20,757 bases of DNA from a virus: positions 1-20,757 of the IMG/VR virus record IMGVR_UViG_3300034120_001427; one strand, 5' to 3'. The notes beneath the pieces are model-generated. The model had not been told where the DNA came from. It saw only the letters and a list, made by a program, of their open reading frames with translations, and ran no database searches. The position numbers and the translations under genes were made by a program. Each line of letters opens with the position of its first letter. Position 1 is the stretch's first letter. Positions 1,869 through 20,757 of this stretch are shown piece after piece.

Positions 1869-2248
1869 GTTTATATGTACGCATAGAAAATAATGAAGTT
1901 AAAGATTGCTGGGATACACCACCTGACAGCAGACCTGGATGGAAAGATGCCATTGAGGTAAGACCTACTATTATACCGCATCGTCAATATTATACAGGTC
2001 ATACATTTGATTTAACTAAAGATCCTGTAGAAATTGTTTATGGTGTAGTTGATATTTCTGTAGCTGACCGCAAAGTGAGCATGAAAGAAAATGCTTCTAT
2101 GGCATTTAATATGCTTTTTAGACAGCAAGCTAATGATCCGTCTACTTATGACCCAGTAGCCCTACAAGCTGCTAAAGATGCTGTTGCACCCAAGCAAGCT
2201 GCTATTGATGCCTGTACTACTCACGATGAATTGGATGCTCTCCTATGA
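1865..2248 (+). CDS. Hypothetical phage protein, 127 aa
   Basis: I do not recognise this family with confidence. The first 75 residues look like a beta-rich segment (MSLYVRIENNEVKDC at the start, then HRQYYTGHTFDL). The last 40 are helical and alanine-rich, with AALDA-like spacing ending in THDELDALL. This two-part plan, a small beta head followed by a helical tail, resembles small tail-accessory or fibre-assembly proteins of phages, but that is only a shape argument. It starts at an ATGA overlap with the sulfotransferase gene and has a strong AGGAGAG site. It ends in an ATGA overlap with the kinase/nucleotidyltransferase gene, so all three are probably made from one message. There are no membrane segments, cysteine clusters or signal peptide. 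Confidence 0.75.
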   Translation: MSLYVRIENNEVKDCWDTPPDSRPGWKDAIEVRPTIIPHRQYYTGHTFDLTKDPVEIVYGVVDISVADRKVSMKENASMAFNMLFRQQANDPSTYDPVALQAAKDAVAPKQAAIDACTTHDELDALL

Positions 2249-3072
2249 AGAAAATACTGATTATGGGTTTACCTGGCTCTGGTAAGACTTACTTAGCCCA
2301 AGCCCTAAAGAAGTATTTAGAAATAAATGGTACTCGCAAAGATTACGGAGAATCCTTTACTGGATTTAACGCACAAGTTAATTGGTTCAATGCAGACGAG
2401 GTGCGTAAGAAGTACAACGATTGGGATTTCTCCAATGAAGGCAGAATCCGGCAATCCCTACGCATGGCTCAGTTTGCATTAGAGGCTGGCGGTGATTATG
2501 TTATCTGCGACTTTGTAGCACCCCTTGTAGAGATGCGTAATAACTTCAAAGCCGACTGGACTGTCTGGATGGACACGATTGATGCTGGCAGGTACGAAGA
2601 TACTAACAAAGCCTTTATCCCACCAACAGTCTATGACTTCCGTGTCACGGAGCAGAACTGCGAGAAGTGGGCTGAGTTCATCGGCAACCACATTATTGAG
2701 AACCGCAGACGCCCAGTCTTTAACTGGCAATCTGAAACAGTACAGATGCTGGGCAGATGGCAACCGTGGCATTCAGGTCATAGAGCCTTGTTTGAACGTG
2801 CCATTGCCAAAACAGGTCAAGTAGTTATCCAAATTCGTGATTGTCAGGGCTGGCAGGGCAGTAACCCGTTTGCTATTGAGCAAGTGAAGAGCAATATTAA
2901 GAGAGACTTAGACCCACTTTTCCAAGGGCAATACGAGATTCAAGTCGTTCCTAACATTACCAACATTACCTACGGGCGTGACGTTGGCTACAAGATTGAG
3001 CAGGAAACCTTTGATAAATCAGTAACCGATATATCCGCAACCAAGATCCGTAAAGAAATGGGGTTAACATGA
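2245..3072 (+). CDS. CysC-like kinase fused to HxGH nucleotidyltransferase
   Basis: The product (275 aa) joins two enzymes. Residues 1-155 are a P-loop kinase with Walker A GLPGSGKT at 8-15. Its next block closely follows adenylylsulfate (APS) kinase: ADEVR at 50-54, N58, DFS at 61-63, R67 and R73, then an ICDFVAP strand at 87-93. Residues about 164-275 are a nucleotidyltransferase: GRWQPWHSGH at 170-179 (HxGH at 176-179), SNPF at 206-209 and the C-terminal ISATKIR at 263-269. These features are typical of NMN adenylyltransferases (NadM/NadR) and relatives. APS kinase phosphorylates APS to PAPS, the donor for the sulfotransferase two genes upstream, so a role in PAPS supply is attractive. The second domain could stand in for ATP sulfurylase, which belongs to the same HxxH superfamily, or could act in NAD salvage. 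A NadR-like role is the main alternative, but NadR has the opposite domain order. The gene overlaps both neighbours by ATGA and has no clear Shine-Dalgarno site, so translational coupling is likely. Confidence 0.8.
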   Translation: MKKILIMGLPGSGKTYLAQALKKYLEINGTRKDYGESFTGFNAQVNWFNADEVRKKYNDWDFSNEGRIRQSLRMAQFALEAGGDYVICDFVAPLVEMRNNFKADWTVWMDTIDAGRYEDTNKAFIPPTVYDFRVTEQNCEKWAEFIGNHIIENRRRPVFNWQSETVQMLGRWQPWHSGHRALFERAIAKTGQVVIQIRDCQGWQGSNPFAIEQVKSNIKRDLDPLFQGQYEIQVVPNITNITYGRDVGYKIEQETFDKSVTDISATKIRKEMGLT

Positions 3073-4091: not shown

Positions 4092-4577
4092 ATGTTCACT
4101 TTAATATCCACAGCACTGTCCTTCCTGATGGGGGGACTGCCTAAACTACTGGACTTTTTCCAAGACAGCTCGGATAAGAAGCATGAAATGGCTATGGCTC
4201 AGATGCAGATGGAGCGAGAGCTTAAGATGCTAGAGGCGGGCTATATTGCCCAAGCCCGTATTGAAGAGATCAGGACAGAACAAGTCCAGATGGAGACCCA
4301 AGCCCAAGAGCGTACGGCTATGTATGCCCACGACATTGAGATTGGTAAGGGCGCTTCTCAGTGGATTATTAACCTTCGTGCTTCGGTGCGTCCAGTCGTG
4401 ACCTACCTGTTTGTTCTCCTCTTAATCATCGTAGACATCGCTTCTATATGGTGGGCGTGGTCATCTGGCGCTGCGTTTGCCGAGGCTATCCCAATGGTGT
4501 TTGATGCAGACGAAATGCAGATTTTGGCGTCCATTATTGCTTTCTGGTTCGGGACTCAGGCATTTAGTAAGAGATGA
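4092..4577 (+). CDS. Holin, 3TM family (gene-transfer-agent type)
   Basis: The product makes the inner-membrane lesion that lets the endolysin reach peptidoglycan. Its 161 residues match the plan of the 3TM holin family first described for gene transfer agents. An N-terminal hydrophobic segment (about 3-22, LISTALSFLMGGLPKLLDFF) is followed by a charged, methionine-rich coiled region at about 27-85. Next comes the conserved LRASVRPVVTY block at about 96-106, which leads into a membrane helix at about 107-122. A last helix ends in IIAFWFGTQAFSKR at the C-terminus, close to the family's FWFG-x-R ending. GGGAG-like bases just before the ATG (GGGAGAT at 4081-4087) serve as the Shine-Dalgarno site. 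The gene overlaps the lysozyme gene by ATGA, the usual pairing of holin and endolysin. Confidence 0.85.
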   Translation: MFTLISTALSFLMGGLPKLLDFFQDSSDKKHEMAMAQMQMERELKMLEAGYIAQARIEEIRTEQVQMETQAQERTAMYAHDIEIGKGASQWIINLRASVRPVVTYLFVLLLIIVDIASIWWAWSSGAAFAEAIPMVFDADEMQILASIIAFWFGTQAFSKR

Positions 4578-5050
4578 AAGTAAGCGATAAAGCAATCAAA
4601 ATGATTAAACACCATGAAGGTGTACGCCAGCGTCCTTATCGCTGCCCCGCAAAATTGTGGACGATTGGTATTGGTCATGTACTCTATCCACGGCAAGGTG
4701 CTTTGAAAATAGACGAACGGGATGCCTACCCACTAGAATACAAAGATGACCGTACCTTTTTGATGGAGGAAGTAGATGACATTCTTAGAGACGATCTTAA
4801 TCGCTTTGAGCGAGGTGTTGAACGCTACTGTCCCGTTAAGCTCACTCAAGGTCAGTTCGATTCTCTTGTTAGTTTTGCTTTCAATGTTGGTCTGGGAACA
4901 CTACAGCGCAGCACCCTCCGTCAAAAGGTTCTTCGGGGCGAGATGGAAGAAGCAGCAGAAGAGTTCTTGAAATATACGCTCGCTGGGGGTAAAGTACTGA
5001 AAGGCTTAGTTACTCGTAGAAACGATGAACGAGCATTGTTCTTATCCTAG
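4574..5050 (+). CDS. Endolysin, GH24 lysozyme
   Basis: A T4-type (GH24) muramidase that cuts the glycan strands of peptidoglycan at lysis. The 158 residues are close to the family's usual length. The catalytic triad spacing E-x8-(D/C)-x5-T is present as E15 (HHEG), C24 and T30 (LWTIGIGH at 28-35). The middle position is cysteine, a known natural variant of the Asp seen in T4 lysozyme. Later family landmarks are QGQFDSLVSFAFNVG (about 91-105) and LVTRRNDERALFL near the C-terminus. There is no signal peptide or N-terminal anchor, so release should depend on the holin encoded just upstream. The ATG lies within the holin's stop (ATGA). An 11-base gap with AGGG (5049-5052) leads to the next gene. 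Confidence 0.93.
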   Translation: MKVSDKAIKMIKHHEGVRQRPYRCPAKLWTIGIGHVLYPRQGALKIDERDAYPLEYKDDRTFLMEEVDDILRDDLNRFERGVERYCPVKLTQGQFDSLVSFAFNVGLGTLQRSTLRQKVLRGEMEEAAEEFLKYTLAGGKVLKGLVTRRNDERALFLS

Positions 5051-9322: not shown

Positions 9323-10261
9323 ATGGCAACATCTACCTCGATACAAACAGCACTAACAGACGTCCCAGAGGTCTTACGCCCGTATATTACGGGTGCTGGT
9401 GGTGTTCTTCCTACGGCACAGACTCTTTTATCTAAAGACTATCAAACTACCTATGGCGCTCCGTTACAACAAGCTGGTCTAGCAGGGTCAGGTCGTGTGG
9501 CTGGTTTGTCTCCTATGCAGCAACAGATAGGAACTCAGTTAGGTACTATGGCTACGCCTACTCAGTTTGGTACAGGTACAGGTGCGGCTCAATTAGGTGT
9601 TGGTTCTACCGCTTTAGGTCTGGGTGCGTTGGGTTCTATGTTAAGCCCAGAGCAGACCGCTATGTATATGTCACCATACCAACAAAATGTTATTGACGTT
9701 AACAAAGCCGAAGCGTTAAGAGATGCTCAAAAAGGGTTGATGGCAGGAAATCTTGATGCAGCTCGTAAAGGTACTTATGGTGGAGCTAGACAGTTATTGT
9801 CACAAACCGAACAAGACCGTAACTTACAGACTAAATTAGGAAACATTCAAGCGACAGGTATGCAAAATGCATTTGATGCAGCGCAAAAAGCTCAGATTGC
9901 TCAAGCTGCTGGGTATGGTCAATTAGGTCAGACTTATGGTCAGTTGGGTCAAACTTACGGTGCTTTGGGTACGGCTCAACAAGCTTCAGACATTGATCGC
10001 ATTAAGACCCAAGGTGCATTTGGCGACCTTCAGCGTGGTATACAACAACAACAATTAGATGCTCAGTATCAAGACTTAATGTCTAAGTTGAACTATCCAT
10101 TAACCAGTATTGAGACTATGAGCAATTTAGCCCGTGGTGTACCATTAACACAGACTGCAAGCTCTGGCTCCCAGACTACGCCTCCACCAAGTTTTGCAAG
10201 CCAATTAGCTGGTATGGGATTAACAGGATTGTCTCTCTACAATATGTTTGGGAATAAATAA
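9323..10261 (+). CDS. Gln/Ala-rich putative internal virion protein
   Basis: The product is 312 residues and compositionally simple, rich in Gln, Ala, Gly and Leu. It has a recognisable phage N-terminus (DVPEVLRPYITGAGGVLP) and the block MSPYQQNVIDVNKAEALRDAQKG. The middle carries YGARQLL-like and QTEQDRNLQTKL helices, then three tandem units of YGQLGQT at 198-218. The last residues are a hydrophobic helix (FASQLAGMGLTGLSLYNMFG). Long helical, Gln-rich proteins next to giant ejection proteins are often packaged inside the head, so an internal or ejection protein is the best guess. AAGGA at 9312-9316 precedes the ATG. The stop overlaps the next start (TAATG). Confidence 0.75.
   Translation: MATSTSIQTALTDVPEVLRPYITGAGGVLPTAQTLLSKDYQTTYGAPLQQAGLAGSGRVAGLSPMQQQIGTQLGTMATPTQFGTGTGAAQLGVGSTALGLGALGSMLSPEQTAMYMSPYQQNVIDVNKAEALRDAQKGLMAGNLDAARKGTYGGARQLLSQTEQDRNLQTKLGNIQATGMQNAFDAAQKAQIAQAAGYGQLGQTYGQLGQTYGALGTAQQASDIDRIKTQGAFGDLQRGIQQQQLDAQYQDLMSKLNYPLTSIETMSNLARGVPLTQTASSGSQTTPPPSFASQLAGMGLTGLSLYNMFGNK
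9914..9976 (+). repeat. Three 21-base coding repeats (YGQLGQT)
   Basis: Units at 9914-9934, 9935-9955 and 9956-9976 encode YGQLGQT, YGQLGQT and YGALGTA. Adjacent units differ mainly at third codon positions. The heptad length would extend a helix by two turns per unit. Confidence 0.85.
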
Positions 10262-11709
10262 TGAGCATAGCAAACGAACTTACACAGCAAAAAGGGTCTA
10301 TTGATGACTTAGCTAAACTTCCACAAGCCTTAATTATGCAGATGGCTCAGAAGGGTCAAATTAGCGAGGATATGCTTGCTCCTATCCTTGGTCTTAAAGC
10401 AGAAATGGCTGATGCTTTTGCTAGGAATGAAGCTCTTAAAAATGCTGGGCAAGTACCTCCAACCGTTATGGAGCAGTTACTAGCTAAAAATGCAATGGCA
10501 GAACAAGGGCAAATGCCACAAATGCCACAGCAAATGATGCCGCCACAGCAAATGATGCCACCACAGCAAATGATGCCACCACAGCAAATGATGGCAGAAC
10601 AACAAATAATGGCACAACAAATGCCACAGGGTATGGAAGACGCAGGACTTGCTCAGTTACCTATCCCTAACCGGGAATATGCAGGTGGGGGTATTGTTGC
10701 TTTCCAAAATAACCCAGACCAACCAGTATCGCCTAATATGCCTTTAACTTATACAGTTGATGAAGAAGGCTATAGAATGCCAAGTTCGGCTGCAAAAGGC
10801 ACTTCTCAAGCTGTACGTGACTTGGATGAATTTGTAGAAAACATTGCTCTCAGAGGGAGTTATGCTACTAAAAACATAGGCGATCTATTTAAGAGTGGAA
10901 TTCAAAACGTAAAAGATTATTTTGGTCGTTCTACTCCTGGGCAGTATCAAGCTGGACAAGCTCCAACACTTATTCCTCCTGTTGTTAAAGAAGATAAAAT
11001 TACTATAGGATCAAGGAAACCCCCTACAGCAGCCCCTAATGTTGGAATAAATACACCGCCTCCCCCACAAGATAATTCTCTTGCAGAAACTCTTAAACGA
11101 TTAGAAGCGGGTATTGTAGGTGATGCTAAGGAACGTAAAGCGGCTAGAAAAGAAGCTCGTGATTTACGCATGCTTGAGGGTTCGCTAGGTATATTAGGTG
11201 GAGAGTCGCCTTATGCCTTTGTAAATTTAGGCAAAGGACCAATGAGTGCAATCAGAGGGTACGGAGAAGATATTAAAGGGTTACGTGCTGAAGAGACTGA
11301 TCGTAGAAAACAACTTTCAGCTTTAGGTCTTAAAGGAATAGAACTTCAACAAGCTAATAAACTGCTTAATGCTCAACTTCCTTTATTACGTTCACAAACT
11401 GGATATTATGAAGCTAGAGCAAGGAATCCTTATGGCGCTGCTGGTTTAGGTGGTACCGTAACCCCTGAAGTTACTAGAAAAATGATGGACGCAACTAAAG
11501 CACTTGGGGCTAATCCTAAGTCGGATCCAGCATTTTTTGCTTCTTTACCAAAAAATGTTCAAGATGCTTTAGGCACAAAAGTAGGGTCTCCTTCGTATAA
11601 CAGAGGTATAGAAGAGTCTATTAGAATTGCTAACGAAAAAATGATGAAAGAATTAAACTTTATAAGCTCATTAAATAGAAGATCCCCAACGTTTTCTACA
11701 ACCGAATAA
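10261..11709 (+). CDS. Met/Gln/Pro-rich putative internal virion protein
   Basis: The product is 482 residues. Its first 70 residues are helical (IDDLAKLPQALIMQMAQKG, then ISEDMLAPILGLKAEMADA). A Gln/Met/Pro tract at about 78-120 contains PPQQMM repeats. It is followed by REYAGGGIVAFQ at about 138-149, a short motif seen near the ends of several phage virion proteins. The remainder has a disordered, Pro-rich section (about 230-275) and a long charged helical region (about 275-400) containing a hydrophobic patch (MLEGSLGILGGESPYAFVNLG). No enzyme motif is visible. The neighbours suggest that it is packaged with the giant protein and serves in head filling, ejection or scaffolding. AAGGG just after its stop serves the giant gene. 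Confidence 0.72.
   Translation: MSIANELTQQKGSIDDLAKLPQALIMQMAQKGQISEDMLAPILGLKAEMADAFARNEALKNAGQVPPTVMEQLLAKNAMAEQGQMPQMPQQMMPPQQMMPPQQMMPPQQMMAEQQIMAQQMPQGMEDAGLAQLPIPNREYAGGGIVAFQNNPDQPVSPNMPLTYTVDEEGYRMPSSAAKGTSQAVRDLDEFVENIALRGSYATKNIGDLFKSGIQNVKDYFGRSTPGQYQAGQAPTLIPPVVKEDKITIGSRKPPTAAPNVGINTPPPPQDNSLAETLKRLEAGIVGDAKERKAARKEARDLRMLEGSLGILGGESPYAFVNLGKGPMSAIRGYGEDIKGLRAEETDRRKQLSALGLKGIELQQANKLLNAQLPLLRSQTGYYEARARNPYGAAGLGGTVTPEVTRKMMDATKALGANPKSDPAFFASLPKNVQDALGTKVGSPSYNRGIEESIRIANEKMMKELNFISSLNRRSPTFSTTE
10540..10593 (+). repeat. Three 18-base coding repeats (PPQQMM)
   Basis: CCA-CCA-CAG-CAA-ATG-ATG occurs three times, at 10540-10557, 10558-10575 and 10576-10593; the first unit has CCG instead of CCA. 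A partial unit (CAG-CAA-ATG-ATG, 10528-10539) precedes them. The units are almost identical at DNA level, which points to recent expansion. Confidence 0.9.
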
Positions 11710-11718: not shown

Positions 11719-14700
11719 ATGCCTCAAGTAACTATTCCTGGAATAGGGAACGTTAATTTCCCAGACGCTATGTCTGATCAGGAAATCATGGCTCAAGCTA
11801 GAGCTATGCAAGAAAAAGCAAGTCAACCTATTTTTGATCCTAAAGATTTAGGACTTGGACAGCTTATTAGTGGGGGTTTTGGTCGTAGTGTTGAGGGTCT
11901 TAAAGGTACAGCACTTGATTTAATTCCTGCGTTTGGTGCATCTCTTATTGGTAAAGATCAATATGCTAAAGAACAGTTAAAAGAATATAGTGAACGCATG
12001 GCTGCCGCAGAGGAGCTTTATCCTACGGCATATAAGTCCTATAAAGATATTGGTGGTATTGGTGGTATATTGCCTTTTGCAGCCGAAACCGTTGGTGAAC
12101 TTGGTCCAGATATAGCTTCATTTATAGGTAGTGGTTTAGGTGTTGGTTTTGTTGGTAAGAAACTTGCTTTAAGTGCGTTAGAAAAACAAGTCCGTGCAGA
12201 AGCGGCAGAGTTTGCGGCAAAGAAAAAACTAAGTGCAGAAGCCACACAAGATTATGCTGATCGGTTAGTAGCCCGCACTCAAGCTGGACAGATTGGCACT
12301 AGAGTAGCCAAAACGGGTAAAGATATTGGTTTAAAGACAGGTATTGGTGGGGCATCTGTTGGTATTAATATCCCTGACGTTTTCCAAAGCATATACGAGG
12401 ATACGGGCGAACTAGCCCCTGGTGTTGCTTTAACAATTGGTTCTTTGGTTTCAGCTCTTGATACTTATTTACCTACTAAGATCTTAAGTCAGCTTGGACC
12501 AAAAGGTAAAGAGCGTATTGCTGCAGAAATGCTCAAAAAATCTACCGTAGTTCCAACTACATTTAAAAAAGCATTTGGTGCTGAAATATTAAAAACTGCA
12601 ACAGGTGAAGCTTTAACTGAAGCCGGACAAGAAGCCCTTACTAAGTTTGCTTCACAGATAGTTGGTAGTAAAGATCCGTTTTTCTCCGAGAAAAATATTG
12701 ATCAGATCATTACTGCTTCTCTAAAAGGCTTTATAGGTGGTGGTGTATTTGGTGCGCCTGGCGCTGCGTTTGAAGCTAAACGTATTAAAGATGAACGTAA
12801 TCGTTTAATTGCTGAAAGACAAGCAGGACAAGAAGACCAAGCAGCCCAGCAATTCTCTAGCCTACAGCAAACACAGCCTGACTTGTTTGGTGAACAAGCT
12901 TCTGCTACCCCGTACGATGCTCGTCAAGCTCAAATGGATGCTGCTATGCAAGGTGTAGCACCACAAGCTGCGGCACAACAAATGCCACTAGATTTACAAG
13001 GTGGTATGACCGCAGAGCAACAAATGGTTGCGGAACGAGATCGGCAAAATCAAGAAATGAATCAGTTGTATCTTGAGGAAGCACAACAGCAAGTACAACA
13101 AGCTAAAGAACGTGCTGCTACTGCAAAAGAAATTCTTGATGAAGAGATCTTTCTAACAGACGAGCGTGTTCGTCTTGGTGATATTAAGCGTACCGAAGCA
13201 GAACGTATTAACTTATTGCTACCTATTATTAATAATTTAGAACTTGGCACAGAAGATTCTATTACCTTATTCCAACAGACTTTACGTAGCGTTGGGTACA
13301 ACAACCTTGAGTTAACTGAAGCCGAACAGAGATTACTACAAAGAGCAGACGACGTTAAGACAGCTATTGCTTTGTCATTACAAGGCGAGTTAGACCTACA
13401 ACAACTAGAGTATTCTGCAGCAAACCAACTTACCCCAGATATCACTGGTATCAAAGAAAAAGGTGAGAAAGGTCCAGCAGGTACACCGAGAGCAGAAGAA
13501 CCCGGTCAACTTAAATTAGACTTAGGTCCTTTAAAAACACCTCGTGCTAGACCAGAACCACCAGTAGAAGTTGCGCCGGAAGCAGCGCCTAGTACAGTTT
13601 TAGATACTAATACATTAGATAGTATTGGTTTGCCTAGGCAGTCTGGGTACTATCGGCAACTTGCTAACAAAGATGTAGCTAACCCTGCAGACCAAGAAGC
13701 CGTGCGTAATATATTAGCTGCTGTTAGACAGAACCCAAATTTATCACCATTTACCAAACAAGCGATAGAGTCAATAGCTATGCAAGCGTTTAATGCATTA
13801 GCTACACAGCAAACATTCCTTGGTCCACGGGGTGGCATTTTAAAAGGAGCCGATTATGGAAGAGTACGATCTGGACCTACCGGTGGAGTTAGTGGAGCAG
13901 GCGTTCCTATTCCTAGTGAACAAGCACCAACAGAACCCACCAAAAGAACTAGAGCACCTAAACAACAAAGAGTGGATTCAACTACAGAACCTGTTGATAA
14001 GTCTGGAAGTGGAGAAAAACTGCCAAGTAGTACATTAAAGAAAAAAGTTAAACCTGCAGCTACTCCGACACCACCTACAACACCTCCCCCACCCCCTGCA
14101 AAGAAAGCTACTACAGAACCTGAAAACATTCCTGTTAATGCATACACTAAAGCATTACGGAAGCGGATAGGTATTGTCAACGATAAGCTACGCACAGAAA
14201 CAGACCCGACTGAAAAAGAACTGCTTAGAGACGAGCTTGAAGAACTTAAGTTAGATCTTAGCGAAAAGACTATTACCCCAGATACATCAGCCAATAATGA
14301 AGTAGCGGCTGAACTAGGTAAATTAGACGAAGCAGAAATAAACGCCCTTGAAACACATTATGGGGCTGCTCGCAATAGTGAAGAGTTTTTAGCTAATATT
14401 AAAGAAGACGTACTTAGCTATGTAAACAAGGGGGCTTCAGCAGTTGCTAAAGCTATTCGGGATATTATTCAAAAGATTGCTAACGGATTGTTGTCCGTAG
14501 CTGTGGTATTTAATGCGTCTGCATTACAACCTGATCTATTTAATGTACCCCAAGCGTTTGCAGCAACAAGAAACATATCTATAGCAGCCCCGACTAATGT
14601 GCCTATGTCTGACATAGCCAAAACAACTTACTCGTTGTCTGCTCCAGTAGCTATTAAGAACAAACAAGCACTCTTTATTGCCGACAAACCTAACGGCATG

Positions 14701-17700
14701 ATTCACATGTTTGATGAAAAAGGGCAGTTTATTGCTTCAAGTAATGCTCTATATGGCAAACAAGCTGGTGACATACTAACCGAAGAGTCCCGTAGTAAAC
14801 CCATTGAGAAGATAACCACGGTAGATAAAGTAACACCTGCTGGTACATATGAGCTTTCTTTTAGTAAAGACTTATCAGGTGATTACGCTGGTGGCTACAC
14901 CCTTAGATTTAACGATAAGAAGGGCGACCTAGGTGGAATAGCTATACACTCGGTTTACTTAGGCGATGTAAAAGAAGATAGATTAAAAAAATTAAGTTCA
15001 GCTGACCCAGCCGATAAAAAAGTTTCGTTTGGTTGTGTAAACACTTCCCCAGAATTTATACTTAACGAGGTGTTACCTCGTGCCAGCACTATATTTGAAG
15101 GCAACAAAAAAGCTATGGCGGTGGTTATTCCCGACCAACAAGCTATGTTAGGTGCTTACCTTAAACCGTTAACACGAGAGTCTAAAGAAGGTACTACTGG
15201 TAGAGCTGCAGCCGATTTAGCCGCAAAAGAAGAACAGATTACTGGCACAGAAGCAGAGTCAGAACAACGTATTGAAGGTAGATTCCGTACTGGTGAAGGT
15301 ACGGGTATGGACAAAGCTGATGTACAGAAGTACATTGCAAACGAGATTAAAGGTTGGAAGAATGCTCCACCCGTAAAAGTAATTGAAACTCAGAATCAAC
15401 TACCTAAGTACTTGCAGGAACAGATTGAGAAAGAAAACATAGTTAACCCCAAAGGTGTGTGGGACCCACGCACTCAGTCCGTATTCCTTATCTCTAGTAA
15501 CTTAACTAATAACCACGATGCTACATACACTGTCCTGCATGAAATCATGGGGCACTTTGGTTTACAGAAGATATTAGGTAGTAAGTTTGACAAGGTAATG
15601 GGTGATATTTATAACAGTAACAAAGCTGTTAAAGACCGTGCTGATAACAAGATTGCCAACGGCATGGACAAGCTGGTTGCTGTTGAAGAAGTACTGGCTG
15701 AGATGGCTGAGACTGCAACTAACCCGTCTTTGATTCAAAAGGTAGTTAACATTATTCGTCAAGCATTAAGAGCGCTTGGTTTTGATCTTGATACCTTTAC
15801 TAATGGAGAAATCCTGCAATTACTGCAAGACTCCCGTAAATTTGTTACAGGAACTGAAGGTGTTCCTATTGGCGGCAACGTAAAATTTGGCGCTGTATTT
15901 AATTCAGATGCCCCCATCTTCTATAGTCAGTTAGCTTCAATGGTAGCTGGCGCACCCAAACAACTTAACGTTGCATCAAAAGAACAATGGGCAGCGTGGA
16001 TTAAAAGCAACGCTGGAAAAAACCAAGTTAAAGAAGAAGAGATTGAATACAGCGGTGTATTAGACTTCCTTAACACCACTTCCGGCAAAATTAGCCGTGA
16101 AGATCTACTTGAGTTTTTAAATCAAGAAGGTGTTCAAGTAGACACAATTATTCGTGATCAATATGCAACTAATGAAGAAGCTGAAAAGTTTGAATTACTT
16201 AAAGATGAAGCTAAAGAAAAAAGACGTTCATTTGCTAAAGATTTAAAAAATCGTTTAGATTTAGGAGAAATAAAATTAAATCAATTAATTTCAGAAAAAT
16301 CTTTAACGTACCCACTTATAAACGCTGAAAGAAATCCTAATAGTAAAGTTGAAAACGAATTTGCAAAAGGATATATAAAACGTGCTGTTTTATATAGAGA
16401 TACACGTAAATGGATGGTAATGCAAAATGAAGATTTTAATACCTATAGCGTTTATGACACTAATAAAACTTTAGATGAACCAGCTATTGCTTTTGAAGAT
16501 GAAGCATCTAATTACAGATCAAAATTTTCAACAGCAGATCAAGCACGAGAAGCTTTAGCAGAGTTTAATCTTAATATGCAAGATAGATTTCCAAATGGTG
16601 GGGTAGATATTTATGATCAGTATATAGACTTAAATACTCAAGTAAGAACTTTTTCAGAAAAAGCAGAAAGTGCTAAAGAAGGTTTAGTCCCACAATATGC
16701 AGGATATACTTTAGGTCCAGAAGTTTCAACTAATTACGCCGAACTTATCTTAACCCTATTACCTAGTAAGCAAGATAAAGAATACAAGATAGTTGAATAC
16801 ACTGACGGTATTATTACTAGTCTTTTTAAAGTTGTTGATGCTGAAGGTAACACGTTAGCAGATGACATCCTTAGTATGCAAACAGCTAAAGAAATAAAAG
16901 ATGGTTTAGATAAAGACGGTGCTACGTTATATGAACATGTGCATTGGGCTAACGTTAACAATCCAATAGTACACGTTCGGGTTAATGAAAAGACCGATGC
17001 TCAAGGCAACCGTGTATTGTTTGTAGAAGAATTGCAATCTGACTGGGGTCAAGCATACGCAACTAATAAAGAACCAAAAGTAGAAGTATTAGCACCGTTT
17101 GAAAACGACCGTATAAGTGGTTTTTATTCCGCTTATATTGACGGAACTAGAGTTGCAAGAGCAGCTACAGCAGAACAAGCCCGTGAAGAAGCTTTAGAGT
17201 TTTGGGGAAATCATATTAAAGATAACGTAGCTAAAGCACCGTTTGTAACAGACCCACGCTCATATACCGCACTTGCTATCAAACGATTACTACGTTATGC
17301 CGCAGATAACGGCTACAGTAAAATTTCGTTTATTAGTGGAATAGAAGCACACAATCGTTTTCCCAAAACACAAGATGGTGAAAGTACTAAAAAAGGTATG
17401 GAAACTCACTATGATGTGCGTATTCCTAGTGTAACCAGAGATATATTTAAAAAATTAGGTATTAATCCTAACTCACGCACAGAAGAAATAGCGGTGCGGA
17501 TTCCCCAAGATGTATATAGCCTTGAACTTACAAGTGAAGATGGCGGTACTACTATAGAAGAAAAAAATGTTGATGCACCTGAAATTGATGGCCTTATATT
17601 AGATGGGTATTTTAGAATGTATGGTTCATACCCTAAATTTACAAAAGATTATTACGACCCTGTTACACAAGAACTTTTCTATAAAAAAGGAGACCGTTTA

Positions 17701-20700
17701 CGTTCTAACGTAAAACTACAAAACGCAATAAATAGAGGCATGGATATACAAGAAATACTTGTTGACTCTGTTACGCCTTCAATGAAAGTTAAAATAGAAG
17801 CAAAACAAAGTAGTACAACAGAACCATTCTTTACTATCGACCTTACTCCTGAAACCAAAGAGAAAGTTAAACGTGGTCAGGCTATGTTTCGTGCGGCTCG
17901 TTTTAGTACTGGTGCTGGTGCTACTTTCCGTAATAATCCTGCTGCGCCTGGGGTAAATGGAAACGATGCTAGAACCGTCTTTGATAGTTTTGCTGACAGA
18001 ATTGAAAGCGCAGGGATATTAAACTCCGAACGTGCAGATAGCTTACATGAGTTTATTAAAAATGGTATTTTCGGTAATGCCCGCAAAGCATTACTTTACA
18101 CGTTACCTGTTAAGCCTTTAACTGAAGAAGCTAAACGTGCTGGTTTAAAAATGGCTCCTCAGTTTAATACAATCATTGATGAACAATCAGGATATGTAAA
18201 TAGCTTGAATCGTCGTATCGAGCCTTTGGTTCAACGTGCTGAAGCTTGGGCTAAGGGTGCTGGGCAAAAACAAATAGATCTATTTAATAAAGTAGTTTAC
18301 GACAGCACAACCCTTAAAGCCGATCCAACCAAACTTAAGAAGGCAGACGTTTCTCAAGCCGATTATGACTTAGTAAAAAATAACTACGATAAGTTAGGTG
18401 GCGCAGGTAAAGCTTTATATGCACAGATTCGTGACGCTTACGCCGAAATGTACCAAGAGATTCTTGATTCTATTGAAGATCGTATTGATACGTTTGAAAT
18501 TAGTAAAGATTCAAAATCAAAAATTAAACAAGATATTTTAGAAAAACTTTCTAAACAAGGCAAGCTTGATCCTTACTTTGCGTTAACCCGTAAAGGTAAA
18601 TACTGGCTATCGTATAACTTAAAAACTAAGAGATCAGATGGGCAAGTAACGCTTGAACCATACATTGAAGCTTATACGACTGAACGTGAACGCACAAAAC
18701 AATCGGCTTTAGTTAGAAACGAAGGCGCTACAGATATACAAGCGTTCTCTCAAATATCCCAGTATAGGTATAGCCGTGCACCATCAGGTTCTTTTGTAAA
18801 TGAGTTTCTTAAAATTTTAGAGCTTAATAAACCAAAGAACATGTCTAAAGAAGAATCGGACAAATATAACGAAGCTGCTGATGAAGTAATGCGCTTATAT
18901 CTAAGCACCTTGCCTGAAACATCTTTTGCACAATCATTCCAAAAACGTAAAGAAACCCTTGGATTTAAACGGGACGCTATTGAAGCTATGCGTGATCGGA
19001 TGTACAGCACGTCTCAACAACTTGGACGCATGCGGTACTCGGCAAAACTTAATAAGTTATTAGAAGAGATGCGAGCATATTCTAAACTTGTTAGCAAGGG
19101 TATAGGCGAAGAGGGTGAGAAAATTACCCAACAAGATAACAAGTTAATGAACGACTATATAAGCGTACTGGAAAAACACGCTGAGTCTATTAACAATCCT
19201 AATGTTAGCAATATTTCTAGGTTAATTAACTCCCTTGGATTTAACTATTTACTAGGTTTAAACATATCTTCTGCTGTAATTAACTTGGGTCAAGTACCTA
19301 TGGTTGTAGCACCTTATCTTGCCGGTGAGCATGGATGGGGCGAAACAATGTCTGCGGTTAATAGAGCTTACAAACTATATTTAAATAGTGGTTATGGTAA
19401 AGATGCTCGTACAGTTGAAGTAATTGGCACAGAAAAACGAGACTTAAATGGCAACATAACTACTCCTGCTGAAAAAGTTAAACAACGTGGTATGCCATCT
19501 ATTAGTAACTATGATCTAAATAGTGCCGAAGGTAAGAAGTATGGTACTTTAATTGAACAGGCACAGAAACAAGGGCAAATTAATCAGTCACAGTTCTACG
19601 ATATTTTAGAAGTTGACGGTCGCAAAAACTTTGGAAGCACAGTAAATGCTGTTACCGGTTTTGCATTCCACCACGGAGACCGTATAAACCGTGAAGTATC
19701 TATGGTAGCTGCATATGACTTACAGTTAGCTAAACTAAAGAGCCAAGGTAAAACAGGTAAAGAAGCTGAGATTGAAGCTGCTAACTACGCAATCTATGTA
19801 ACCGAAATGACTAACGGTGGAGTGTCGGCAGCTAGTTCTCCTTTAATTGCTAAAGGTAATATTGGTAGAGTACTCTTTATGTTTAAACGCTACGGCGTTT
19901 CTATGTATTACATGTTATTTAAAATAACACGTGAAGCACTCAAAGGGGAAACACCAGAAATACGTAAAGCAGCTATGAGTCAACTTGCTGGTGTTTATGG
20001 CACGTCAGCTTTGTTCTCTGGCTTACAAGGTGTACCAATGTTTGGTATTGCCGCTATGATTTACAACTTGTTTGCAGAGGAAGATGAAGATGACATGGAG
20101 ACTGCAACCCGTAAATATGTTGGCGAATTTGCCTATAAAGGTATGTTGAACTATGTTACCGGTGCTGAAGTTGCTAGTCGCTTTAGCTTAAGTGACCTAA
20201 TATTTAGAAGTAACCCAACAGCAAACTCACGTACATTTGAGCAAGGTCTTTTAGAAAACATTGGCGGTCCTGCATACGGTGTAATGTCACGAATTAAACG
20301 TGGCTTGGACTTTATGAGCGAAGGTAATATGGAGCGTGGTGTTGAAAACATACTGCCATCAGCTATAAGTAACTTGTTTAAAGCATATCGTTTTGGAACA
20401 GAAGGCGCCCAAAGTTTACGTGGTGATCCAATCGTAGAAGATATTAATGCGTTTAGTATTGCTGCTCAAGCTATGGGATTTGCTCCAGCAGATTACGTAC
20501 GTCAGTTAGAAATAAACTCTAACTTAAAGGGTGTTGAAAAAACCATCCTTCAAGAAAAATCTAAGTTACTTCAAAAGTGGAACGTTGCTACTCGCATGGG
20601 TGACACCGAAGATGCTAATGAATACAAAGAAGAACTTTTTGAATTAAACAAAAAACATCCTGATCTTAAGATTTCTGAAGATACTTTCCAACGTTCCGAA

Positions 20701-20757
20701 AGAGCCTTTAATGCAGCAACCAAACGTACAGTAAATGGTGTTCAGTTTAGTCAAAAA
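11719..20757 (+). CDS. Giant polyvalent virion protein, at least 3013 aa (3' end off window)
   Basis: One frame stays open for 3013 codons and runs off the right edge. The N-terminus has FPDAMSDQEIMA (14-25), a tag common at the start of such proteins. Glycine-rich hydrophobic segments follow (about 112-150 and 205-250), then a Gln-rich coiled region (about 365-490) and disordered Pro/Lys linkers (about 575-640 and 720-805). A hydrophobic helix lies at 905-934. Enzyme-like domains are a YkuD L,D-transpeptidase fold (about 975-1145; H1077, C1106) and an HEXXGH zincin-like domain (about 1215-1380; H1274, E1275, H1279, E1323/E1324). Regions typical of large polyvalent phage proteins follow: EEIEYSGVLDFL (1439-1450), then HVRVNEKTDAQGNR to EELQSDW (1752-1776) with KRLLRYAADNGY (1855-1866). 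The end (about 2090 onward) is PLxRFG-like, with RVLFMFKRYGVSMYY (2717-2731). Such proteins are thought to be packaged and ejected with DNA. The functions of the individual domains here are inferred. Confidence 0.9.
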   Translation, partial: MPQVTIPGIGNVNFPDAMSDQEIMAQARAMQEKASQPIFDPKDLGLGQLISGGFGRSVEGLKGTALDLIPAFGASLIGKDQYAKEQLKEYSERMAAAEELYPTAYKSYKDIGGIGGILPFAAETVGELGPDIASFIGSGLGVGFVGKKLALSALEKQVRAEAAEFAAKKKLSAEATQDYADRLVARTQAGQIGTRVAKTGKDIGLKTGIGGASVGINIPDVFQSIYEDTGELAPGVALTIGSLVSALDTYLPTKILSQLGPKGKERIAAEMLKKSTVVPTTFKKAFGAEILKTATGEALTEAGQEALTKFASQIVGSKDPFFSEKNIDQIITASLKGFIGGGVFGAPGAAFEAKRIKDERNRLIAERQAGQEDQAAQQFSSLQQTQPDLFGEQASATPYDARQAQMDAAMQGVAPQAAAQQMPLDLQGGMTAEQQMVAERDRQNQEMNQLYLEEAQQQVQQAKERAATAKEILDEEIFLTDERVRLGDIKRTEAERINLLLPIINNLELGTEDSITLFQQTLRSVGYNNLELTEAEQRLLQRADDVKTAIALSLQGELDLQQLEYSAANQLTPDITGIKEKGEKGPAGTPRAEEPGQLKLDLGPLKTPRARPEPPVEVAPEAAPSTVLDTNTLDSIGLPRQSGYYRQLANKDVANPADQEAVRNILAAVRQNPNLSPFTKQAIESIAMQAFNALATQQTFLGPRGGILKGADYGRVRSGPTGGVSGAGVPIPSEQAPTEPTKRTRAPKQQRVDSTTEPVDKSGSGEKLPSSTLKKKVKPAATPTPPTTPPPPPAKKATTEPENIPVNAYTKALRKRIGIVNDKLRTETDPTEKELLRDELEELKLDLSEKTITPDTSANNEVAAELGKLDEAEINALETHYGAARNSEEFLANIKEDVLSYVNKGASAVAKAIRDIIQKIANGLLSVAVVFNASALQPDLFNVPQAFAATRNISIAAPTNVPMSDIAKTTYSLSAPVAIKNKQALFIADKPNGMIHMFDEKGQFIASSNALYGKQAGDILTEESRSKPIEKITTVDKVTPAGTYELSFSKDLSGDYAGGYTLRFNDKKGDLGGIAIHSVYLGDVKEDRLKKLSSADPADKKVSFGCVNTSPEFILNEVLPRASTIFEGNKKAMAVVIPDQQAMLGAYLKPLTRESKEGTTGRAAADLAAKEEQITGTEAESEQRIEGRFRTGEGTGMDKADVQKYIANEIKGWKNAPPVKVIETQNQLPKYLQEQIEKENIVNPKGVWDPRTQSVFLISSNLTNNHDATYTVLHEIMGHFGLQKILGSKFDKVMGDIYNSNKAVKDRADNKIANGMDKLVAVEEVLAEMAETATNPSLIQKVVNIIRQALRALGFDLDTFTNGEILQLLQDSRKFVTGTEGVPIGGNVKFGAVFNSDAPIFYSQLASMVAGAPKQLNVASKEQWAAWIKSNAGKNQVKEEEIEYSGVLDFLNTTSGKISREDLLEFLNQEGVQVDTIIRDQYATNEEAEKFELLKDEAKEKRRSFAKDLKNRLDLGEIKLNQLISEKSLTYPLINAERNPNSKVENEFAKGYIKRAVLYRDTRKWMVMQNEDFNTYSVYDTNKTLDEPAIAFEDEASNYRSKFSTADQAREALAEFNLNMQDRFPNGGVDIYDQYIDLNTQVRTFSEKAESAKEGLVPQYAGYTLGPEVSTNYAELILTLLPSKQDKEYKIVEYTDGIITSLFKVVDAEGNTLADDILSMQTAKEIKDGLDKDGATLYEHVHWANVNNPIVHVRVNEKTDAQGNRVLFVEELQSDWGQAYATNKEPKVEVLAPFENDRISGFYSAYIDGTRVARAATAEQAREEALEFWGNHIKDNVAKAPFVTDPRSYTALAIKRLLRYAADNGYSKISFISGIEAHNRFPKTQDGESTKKGMETHYDVRIPSVTRDIFKKLGINPNSRTEEIAVRIPQDVYSLELTSEDGGTTIEEKNVDAPEIDGLILDGYFRMYGSYPKFTKDYYDPVTQELFYKKGDRLRSNVKLQNAINRGMDIQEILVDSVTPSMKVKIEAKQSSTTEPFFTIDLTPETKEKVKRGQAMFRAARFSTGAGATFRNNPAAPGVNGNDARTVFDSFADRIESAGILNSERADSLHEFIKNGIFGNARKALLYTLPVKPLTEEAKRAGLKMAPQFNTIIDEQSGYVNSLNRRIEPLVQRAEAWAKGAGQKQIDLFNKVVYDSTTLKADPTKLKKADVSQADYDLVKNNYDKLGGAGKALYAQIRDAYAEMYQEILDSIEDRIDTFEISKDSKSKIKQDILEKLSKQGKLDPYFALTRKGKYWLSYNLKTKRSDGQVTLEPYIEAYTTERERTKQSALVRNEGATDIQAFSQISQYRYSRAPSGSFVNEFLKILELNKPKNMSKEESDKYNEAADEVMRLYLSTLPETSFAQSFQKRKETLGFKRDAIEAMRDRMYSTSQQLGRMRYSAKLNKLLEEMRAYSKLVSKGIGEEGEKITQQDNKLMNDYISVLEKHAESINNPNVSNISRLINSLGFNYLLGLNISSAVINLGQVPMVVAPYLAGEHGWGETMSAVNRAYKLYLNSGYGKDARTVEVIGTEKRDLNGNITTPAEKVKQRGMPSISNYDLNSAEGKKYGTLIEQAQKQGQINQSQFYDILEVDGRKNFGSTVNAVTGFAFHHGDRINREVSMVAAYDLQLAKLKSQGKTGKEAEIEAANYAIYVTEMTNGGVSAASSPLIAKGNIGRVLFMFKRYGVSMYYMLFKITREALKGETPEIRKAAMSQLAGVYGTSALFSGLQGVPMFGIAAMIYNLFAEEDEDDMETATRKYVGEFAYKGMLNYVTGAEVASRFSLSDLIFRSNPTANSRTFEQGLLENIGGPAYGVMSRIKRGLDFMSEGNMERGVENILPSAISNLFKAYRFGTEGAQSLRGDPIVEDINAFSIAAQAMGFAPADYVRQLEINSNLKGVEKTILQEKSKLLQKWNVATRMGDTEDANEYKEELFELNKKHPDLKISEDTFQRSERAFNAATKRTVNGVQFSQK
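14641..15150 (+). other. YkuD (L,D-transpeptidase-like) domain inside the giant protein
   Basis: Residues about 975-1145 follow the YkuD plan. The opening strands (NKQALFIADKPNG, IHMFDEKGQFIASS) are followed by a TPAGTYEL turn (1039-1046). Next comes the catalytic block IAIHSVYLG with H1077 and, 26 residues later, SFGCVN (1103-1108) with the nucleophile C1106. The family signature is a His followed by (S/T)-x-G-C-x-(R/N), so the key residues are kept. Known members join or cut peptidoglycan stem peptides through an acyl-cysteine intermediate in the periplasm. In a phage ejection protein this would fit local wall remodelling during DNA entry. Confidence 0.75.
15361..15858 (+). other. HEXXGH zincin-like peptidase domain inside the giant protein
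   Basis: Residues about 1215-1380. The strand GVWDPRTQSVFLISSNL leads to a helix with LHEIMGHFGL, where H1274, E1275 and H1279 form HEXXGH rather than the usual HEXXH. About 45 residues later VEEVLAEMAE supplies E1323, E1324 and E1328. The pair HEXXGH plus EExxAE is the arrangement known from dipeptidyl peptidase III (M49). Similar metallopeptidase-like modules recur in phage polyvalent proteins. A peptidase acting on a host or virion protein is plausible; the target is unknown. Confidence 0.7.
16921..17340 (+). other. Conserved EELQSDW (large polyvalent) domain
   Basis: Residues about 1735-1874. LYEHVHWANVNNPIVHVR, then EKTDAQGNRVLFVEELQSDW (to 1776) and, after a variable stretch, TALAIKRLLRYAADNGYSKI (1850-1869) match a module found in many giant phage and integrative-element proteins, where the core reads close to EEIQSDWHQ. 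No catalytic mechanism is known to me. Acidic residues around 1770-1776 and the aromatic W1776 are the best-kept positions. Confidence 0.65.

Follow-up and report, generated by a model that had tools for sequence, protein, structure and literature searches.

The window analyzed here, the whole 20,757-nucleotide viral stretch of IMG/VR record IMGVR_UViG_3300034120_001427, encodes a giant phage protein that carries a domain of predicted YkuD (L,D-transpeptidase) fold within a mobile cassette, and this cassette is found again in about 26 giant phage proteins that for the most part are otherwise unrelated. The feature is probably an accessory, horizontally mobile cassette of a polyvalent phage protein, supplying a virion-delivered stem-peptide enzyme that acts periplasmically at entry. 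"YkuD-fold wall-peptide enzyme" is a safer label for it than transpeptidase.

The YkuD-fold domain and its predicted structure

A hidden Markov model (HMM) of the domain, built from 26 giant-borne and 80 free-standing bacterial relatives (106 sequences, window excluded), matches the window at residues 978–1149 with 130 bits (E = 2.5e-37, Z set to 97,973), and a search of all six-frame stretches of the window with this model matched nothing else; the YkuD similarity is therefore not due to chance. An earlier note on this DNA, made from the letters alone, had read a full YkuD signature in this frame, with H1077, SFGCVN containing C1106, and an upstream TPAG turn; the HMM match bears this out, and the note's frame, residue numbers, and motifs are all correct. 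Both H1077 and C1106, present in the window, are invariant in 26 of 26 giants and 80 of 80 bacterial copies, as are G1105, N1108, R1088, D989, K990, the TxAG of the turn, G1013, and D1018. S1103 is kept in all giants and in 76 of the 80 bacterial copies, with Thr in the other four.

The domain shares with the YkuD family (PF03734) the fold, the catalytic His and Cys, the S-x-G-C-x-N motif, and the TPxG turn, but it departs from the classical L,D-transpeptidase motif, HXX14-17-(S/T)HGCh, which has 14–17 residues between His and S-x-G-C (PMC9638812). This spacing is 24–26 residues across all giant and bacterial copies and 25 in the window (H1077 to S1103), and the residue preceding G-C is mostly Tyr or Phe rather than His in this subfamily, F1104 standing in the window where His is expected. 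The Pfam YkuD model gave no match to the window sequence at E < 1. The homologous cassette of an Escherichia coli phage-plasmid giant (P0006) exceeds the Pfam cut-off of 23.4 bits with 27.2 bits, that of L122 scores 23.5 bits, and six further homologous cassettes match below the cut-off. Judged by these scores, the window copy has diverged beyond the reach of the Pfam model, yet clear homologues reach its cut-off.

When the PDB was searched by sequence, using the window domain or profiles as query, most of the matches were NHL-repeat/TRIM proteins, and these were judged spurious because the alignments were confined to a short 'DK...FD..G' stretch; an Enterococcus faecium L,D-transpeptidase appeared at E = 0.24–0.37 only, aligned on the S-x-G-C-x-N stretch. 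Streptomyces phage matches (E = 0.02), which have no His/Cys motif, were discarded. The domain as a single query brought up no relative in viral and genome contigs, and seven diverse members, once aligned, varied too much to serve as a query; the relatives came from a query with the whole giant protein, from alignments, and from the phage-plasmid relative.

Structure models were made for the cassette (predicted local distance difference test, pLDDT, of 83) and, with AlphaFold2, for the catalytic core (pLDDT of 91.5, predicted template modeling score, pTM, of 0.88). The earlier note had proposed a fold prediction as a check, and the modeled core has the YkuD fold: all 50 of the 50 PDB matches listed for it are L,D-transpeptidase, L,D-carboxypeptidase, or DpaA structures. 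Among those listed, Csd6 is the top match (E = 1.9e-7, template modeling (TM) score of 0.54), followed by Pgp2 (TM of 0.52), and DpaA is among the best by TM-score (0.53); LdtMt2 and YkuD are other YkuD-fold matches listed for the models. Among viral models, the best match (38% identity) comes from an uncultured phage and is named "large polyvalent protein", and a giant podoviral protein, A0A8S5MBC9, already has an L,D-transpeptidase domain assigned by automatic annotation.

Borders, anatomy, and recurrence of the cassette

The borders of the cassette are given at the DNA level by two close relatives, L007 and L008, that are cleanly without it (Table 1). The relative of the giant protein in L007 has 94% DNA identity to the window over the downstream 5.5 kb and 80% upstream of the gap, and the flanks adjoining the gap in L008 are 89–90% identical. 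The span proposed earlier, 14641–15150, thus covers the catalytic half of a module that runs in full from 14281 to 15251. The expectation that the catalytic residues recur in close homologues holds in part: His and Cys are invariant wherever the cassette exists, whereas the two closest relatives lack the cassette altogether.

The domain is preceded by a lead, helical in the model, that follows the pattern 'HYG...VNKG..AVA.AIR' across giants, and by an internal signal-like hydrophobic segment. A hydrophobic peak lies at the same position in other giants, ranking within the top three 19-mers in most carriers; several carriers have a signal-peptidase-like AxA after the segment (seen by eye in the sequences), and the window copy has AFAA at 946. 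Among the free-standing bacterial relatives, 75 of 80 have a strongly hydrophobic, signal-like stretch ahead of the domain, as counted by a hydropathy test rather than a signal-peptide predictor, which is consistent with a periplasmic or secreted enzyme.

An alignment-based search found the whole cassette in at least 25 other IMG/VR contigs, always inside long open reading frames (ORFs), which span about 2370–4420 residues where uncut by contig ends; an earlier search had given five contigs with the cassette, three of them shared with the 25. It is also present in the E. coli phage-plasmid pSTEC648_2, in a 2318-residue protein (L012:13270-20226) that adjoins a GH104 gene and is annotated as a hypothetical protein. 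The carriers thus number 27, the window and 26 other giants. In piecewise comparison with the window giant, the cassette is the sole shared segment in most carriers, the exceptions being eight that also share the C-terminal region and two that share the zincin region. Inside the 5524-residue ORF of L098, 300-base direct repeats that are 96% identical (L098:7963-8262 and 11278-11577) bracket the cassette, which suggests recent duplication or recombination.

The bacterial copies represent 80 of 284 genomic stretches that encode the free-standing subfamily (L018–L097). In a tree of 107 domains, a 99/99 branch parts all 27 giant-borne copies from these 80, a split that would fit an old viral lineage moving between giant proteins; finer placement is unsure because long branches meet. 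The free-standing proteins (DNRISYGCINVP type) of Comamonadaceae, Sphingomonadales, Caulobacterales, Lysobacter, and others belong to the same subfamily by motif and spacing but are short, the hydrophobic stretch and the stop being about 225 residues apart. The subfamily (DNRISYGC[IV]NVP) occurs in Alpha-, Beta-, and Gammaproteobacteria; the members tested had no Pfam YkuD match or one below the cut-off, and no assigned activity was found for them.

The earlier note had placed the domain in a giant ejection-type phage protein, and family models agree: the protein is giant and multidomain and carries recognized large-polyvalent domains, matching PLxRFG NF032893 (E = 1.3e-113), LPD39 (E = 1.3e-8), and a DarB-like PHROG (E = 7.5e-72), with a DNA-ejection-like gene nearby. 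A metallopeptidase module had been placed shortly after the domain, and a metallopeptidase-like motif, HEIMGH, is indeed found at residue 1274; no family model matched this region, the zincin assignment being by motif. HExxH or HExxxH occurs within 700 residues downstream in 24 of the 27 carriers (median 183), against an expectation from composition of 0.007.

Table 1. Coordinates of the cassette, its parts, and surrounding features in the window
Feature	Coordinates	Strand	Remarks
Cassette by presence/absence	14281..15251	+	971 bases, ~320 residues; missing in L007 and L008 with identical breakpoints
Helical lead	14338..14463	+	Residues 874-915, 'LETHYG...VNKG..AVAKAIRD'; helix in model; common to other giants (alignment with L099, L101)
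Internal signal-like hydrophobic segment	14464..14520	+	Residues 916-934, IIQKIANGLLSVAVVFNAS; third most hydrophobic 19-mer of the giant protein
YkuD-fold catalytic domain (predicted)	14650..15165	+	Residues 978-1149; HMM and fold
TPAG turn	14833..14844	+	Residues 1039-1042; T, A, G without exception across 26 giants and 80 bacterial copies; a single copy lacks P
Catalytic His H1077	14947..14949	+	Invariant
SFGCVN motif	15025..15042	+	Residues 1103-1108; nucleophile C1106 at 15034-15036; C, G, N invariant
Zincin-like HExxxH motif	15538..15555	+	HEIMGH, residues 1274-1279; 171 residues after S1103
Giant polyvalent-type protein ORF	11719..20757	+	3013 aa within window; ORF runs off window end
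PLxRFG-type C-terminal region	18571..20757	+	Residues 2285-3013 of giant protein; NF032893 match
DNA ejection protein-like gene, upstream of giant ORF	9323..10261	+	phrog_4287, E 1.6e-7
Separate lysozyme gene, likely endolysin	4574..5050	+	Phage_lysozyme, E 8.9e-37

Proposed activity at the host wall

Polyvalent proteins reportedly contain lysozyme, SpoIID, and DD-peptidase domains, for which a role in breaching the wall during entry has been proposed, and their zincins are likely processing enzymes (PMC5512222). By our reading, the giant protein would travel in the phage head and be expelled together with the DNA, and the hydrophobic segment would seat at or cross the inner membrane, so that the YkuD domain ends up at the entry site on the periplasmic side. 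The substrate would most likely be the stem peptides of peptidoglycan containing meso-diaminopimelic acid (mDAP); C1106, activated by H1077, would attack a peptide bond adjoining mDAP, and trimming or opening of the stem peptides would leave the wall locally loosened or altered during passage. The downstream zincin module may free the YkuD unit by cleavage.

Several observations weigh against this proposal. The TM-scores are moderate (0.39–0.54 among the PDB matches listed), the window copy has a hydrophobic segment that resembles a membrane segment only marginally (mean of 1.34), and the close relatives L007 and L008 cleanly lack the cassette. Because it is absent whole from its two closest relatives, the cassette is accessory and not essential for entry; it would be an optional aid, needed perhaps according to host or wall type. 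Two residue comparisons also count on this side. LdtMt2, a true crosslinking enzyme, has Asn356 two residues after its Cys (PMC3605043), where the phage domain has the invariant Asn1108, and K1014 may be the counterpart of the acceptor-site Lys282 in LdtMt2, by positional comparison rather than structural superposition.

Absence from two close relatives would also suit a decaying relic without activity, as would the departures of the window copy from the family consensus at several sites (K1100, K1101, and F1104), but as the window and 26 diverged giants retain every catalytic residue, and as the reading frame is open, decay is extremely improbable.

As to the reaction of the proposed stem-peptide enzyme, we infer that hydrolysis is somewhat likelier than crosslinking, a preference that reaches beyond what the sequence decides. 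The best structural matches of the core model among those listed are the L,D-carboxypeptidases Csd6 and Pgp2. In the type VI secretion system effector Tlde1a, the substitution H129A, at the His before G-C, greatly reduces crosslinking and reduces carboxypeptidase activity only partly (PMC9638812); hydrolysis is favored because Tyr or Phe replaces this His, two residues before the Cys, in the phage domain. The residue two positions after the nucleophile is other than Arg, as in the branch of Csd6, Pgp2, and DpaA, a trait that is not exclusive to that branch. Asn at this position had been taken, from the DpaA papers, as proof of hydrolysis, and this argument was dropped: being common to DpaA-like proteins and LdtMt2, the residue does not discriminate.

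A true L,D-transpeptidase activity, by which the wall would be crosslinked anew (3-3 or 1-3) once the DNA has entered, sealing the puncture or altering the wall against competitors, is somewhat unlikely. The predicted YkuD fold and the Asn shared with LdtMt2 would allow it, and the YGK motif may match the acceptor-site Gly-Lys of LdtMt2, the Lys after G1013 being found in 21 of 26 giants and in none of the 80 bacterial copies. Against it stand the replacement of the S-H-G-C His by Tyr or Phe in most copies, its loss in Tlde1a greatly cutting crosslinking, a His-to-Cys spacing that exceeds the classical motif, and nearest folds that are carboxypeptidases and an amidase. Membership in the 1,3-crosslinking LDTGo family was considered; the window has Phe for its Glu262 and Asn for its Arg266 (residues compared without an aligned LDTGo sequence).

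YkuD enzymes that attach proteins to peptidoglycan are known, and DpaA detaches Lpp (PMC8263019, PMC12729407). Covalent attachment of an ejected phage protein or a host envelope protein to peptidoglycan, or a DpaA-like detachment of lipoproteins, by which a trans-envelope channel would be held or opened, is decidedly unlikely here: DpaA is among the best listed structural matches by TM-score, and the second residue after the Cys is Ala or Asn in most DpaA-like proteins, Asn being the residue of the phage domain, but no acceptor sequence on a phage protein was identified, no direct sequence match to DpaA was found, and Asn at that position is unspecific, as LdtMt2 illustrates. A broader proposal is unlikely as well, namely that phages share a mobile cassette delivering a wall-rebuilding or wall-anchoring enzyme with their DNA, such that the entry hole is resealed by unusual crosslinks or the ejected channel is tied covalently to peptidoglycan.

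A cytoplasmic role in which the domain targets proteins or the polyvalent protein that contains it (as a self-processing acyltransferase or peptidase, like other polyvalent domains), is highly improbable. Against it, YkuD enzymes act, to our knowledge, on mDAP stem peptides, and the domain is preceded by a secretion-type hydrophobic stretch in 75 of 80 free-standing relatives, with an echo of it in the giants. In support of cytoplasmic action, polyvalent proteins are regarded as vehicles that bring effectors into the cytoplasm of the host (PMC5512222), and the neighboring zincin falls in a class proposed to process polyvalent proteins.

Genomic setting and relation to known systems

The nearby phrog_4287 gene may serve as context for virion ejection of the giant protein. 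With a separate lysozyme gene that can do lysis, the YkuD domain is dispensable for that step. The final 14 residues of the giant protein are supplied by the near-identical contig L006, which together with L009 is 99.8–99.96% identical to parts of the window. The N-terminal third of the giant protein contains clamp-like peptides, QPDLF twice and QLKLDL once (residues 386–390, 597–602, and 937–941), and the first QPDLF is present in L007 too. The second, at 937–941, had been taken as part of the design of the wall-modifying section, a suggestion that falls away with its conservation in 0 of 25 other giants and its absence from other cassettes. Elsewhere, positions 153–1868 hold a viral gene for 571 residues with a sulfotransferase domain (Pfam E = 2.4e-13) and a TPR-like stretch, and positions 2245–3072 encode a P-loop kinase-like domain (APS kinase, E = 7.5e-7) with a weakly cytidylyltransferase-like second half, possibly a bifunctional nucleotide enzyme.

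Like the amidase DpaA, Csd6 of Helicobacter pylori, Pgp2 of Campylobacter jejuni, and Bd1075, the phage domain is without the Arg found at the second position after the Cys in E. coli transpeptidases; unlike them, it has no visible NTF2 domain and has Asn in place of their Ala or Val, and neither phmmer nor hmmsearch detected sequence similarity to these four. Small YkuD-like phage proteins of Stenotrophomonas, Xanthomonas, and Erwinia (phrog_38499) are similar to the window (E = 6e-8), those of Stenotrophomonas and PhiXhv sharing a TPxG...AIH...GC[IV]N core, but they have about 115 residues, stand alone, and are without the cassette lead and hydrophobic segment. Those of the Stenotrophomonas and Xanthomonas phages (L005:2920-3270, L004:2926-3270, and L017:2947-3294) are mostly annotated as hypothetical proteins, and another small protein, XacN1 ORF390, is annotated as an L,D-transpeptidase. 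Tlde1a is likewise a YkuD-fold wall enzyme delivered to the periplasm of another cell (PMC9638812), as the phage domain would be; it differs in its delivery by a secretion system, in standing alone, and in its classical S-H-G-C.

The window giant resembles the polyvalent proteins of phages and conjugative elements in its size, its multidomain build, its LPD39 and DarB-like regions, and its zincin motif, and peptidoglycan enzymes are a known theme among them (PMC5512222); the main text of the survey of these proteins (Iyer et al. 2017, PMC5512222) names neither YkuD nor transpeptidase. In the open-licence papers searched, we found no description of a YkuD or transpeptidase domain combined with a virion, polyvalent, or internal virion protein. 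What is new here is a further domain type and a recurrent mobile cassette within this known class of polyvalent phage proteins.

The reported peptidoglycan enzymes of ejected phage proteins cleave glycan strands or D,D bonds, and an L,D-class cysteine enzyme in about 26 giants would bring a different chemistry to the entry step. The internal signal-like segment suggests how an ejected enzyme might reach the periplasm. The window and L007 form a natural pair with and without the cassette, 94% identical over the downstream 5.5 kb, and the YkuD subfamily that is widespread in Proteobacteria offers directly assayable enzymes of yet unassigned specificity. The cassette may be a shared tool for passing or tuning the host wall in infection.

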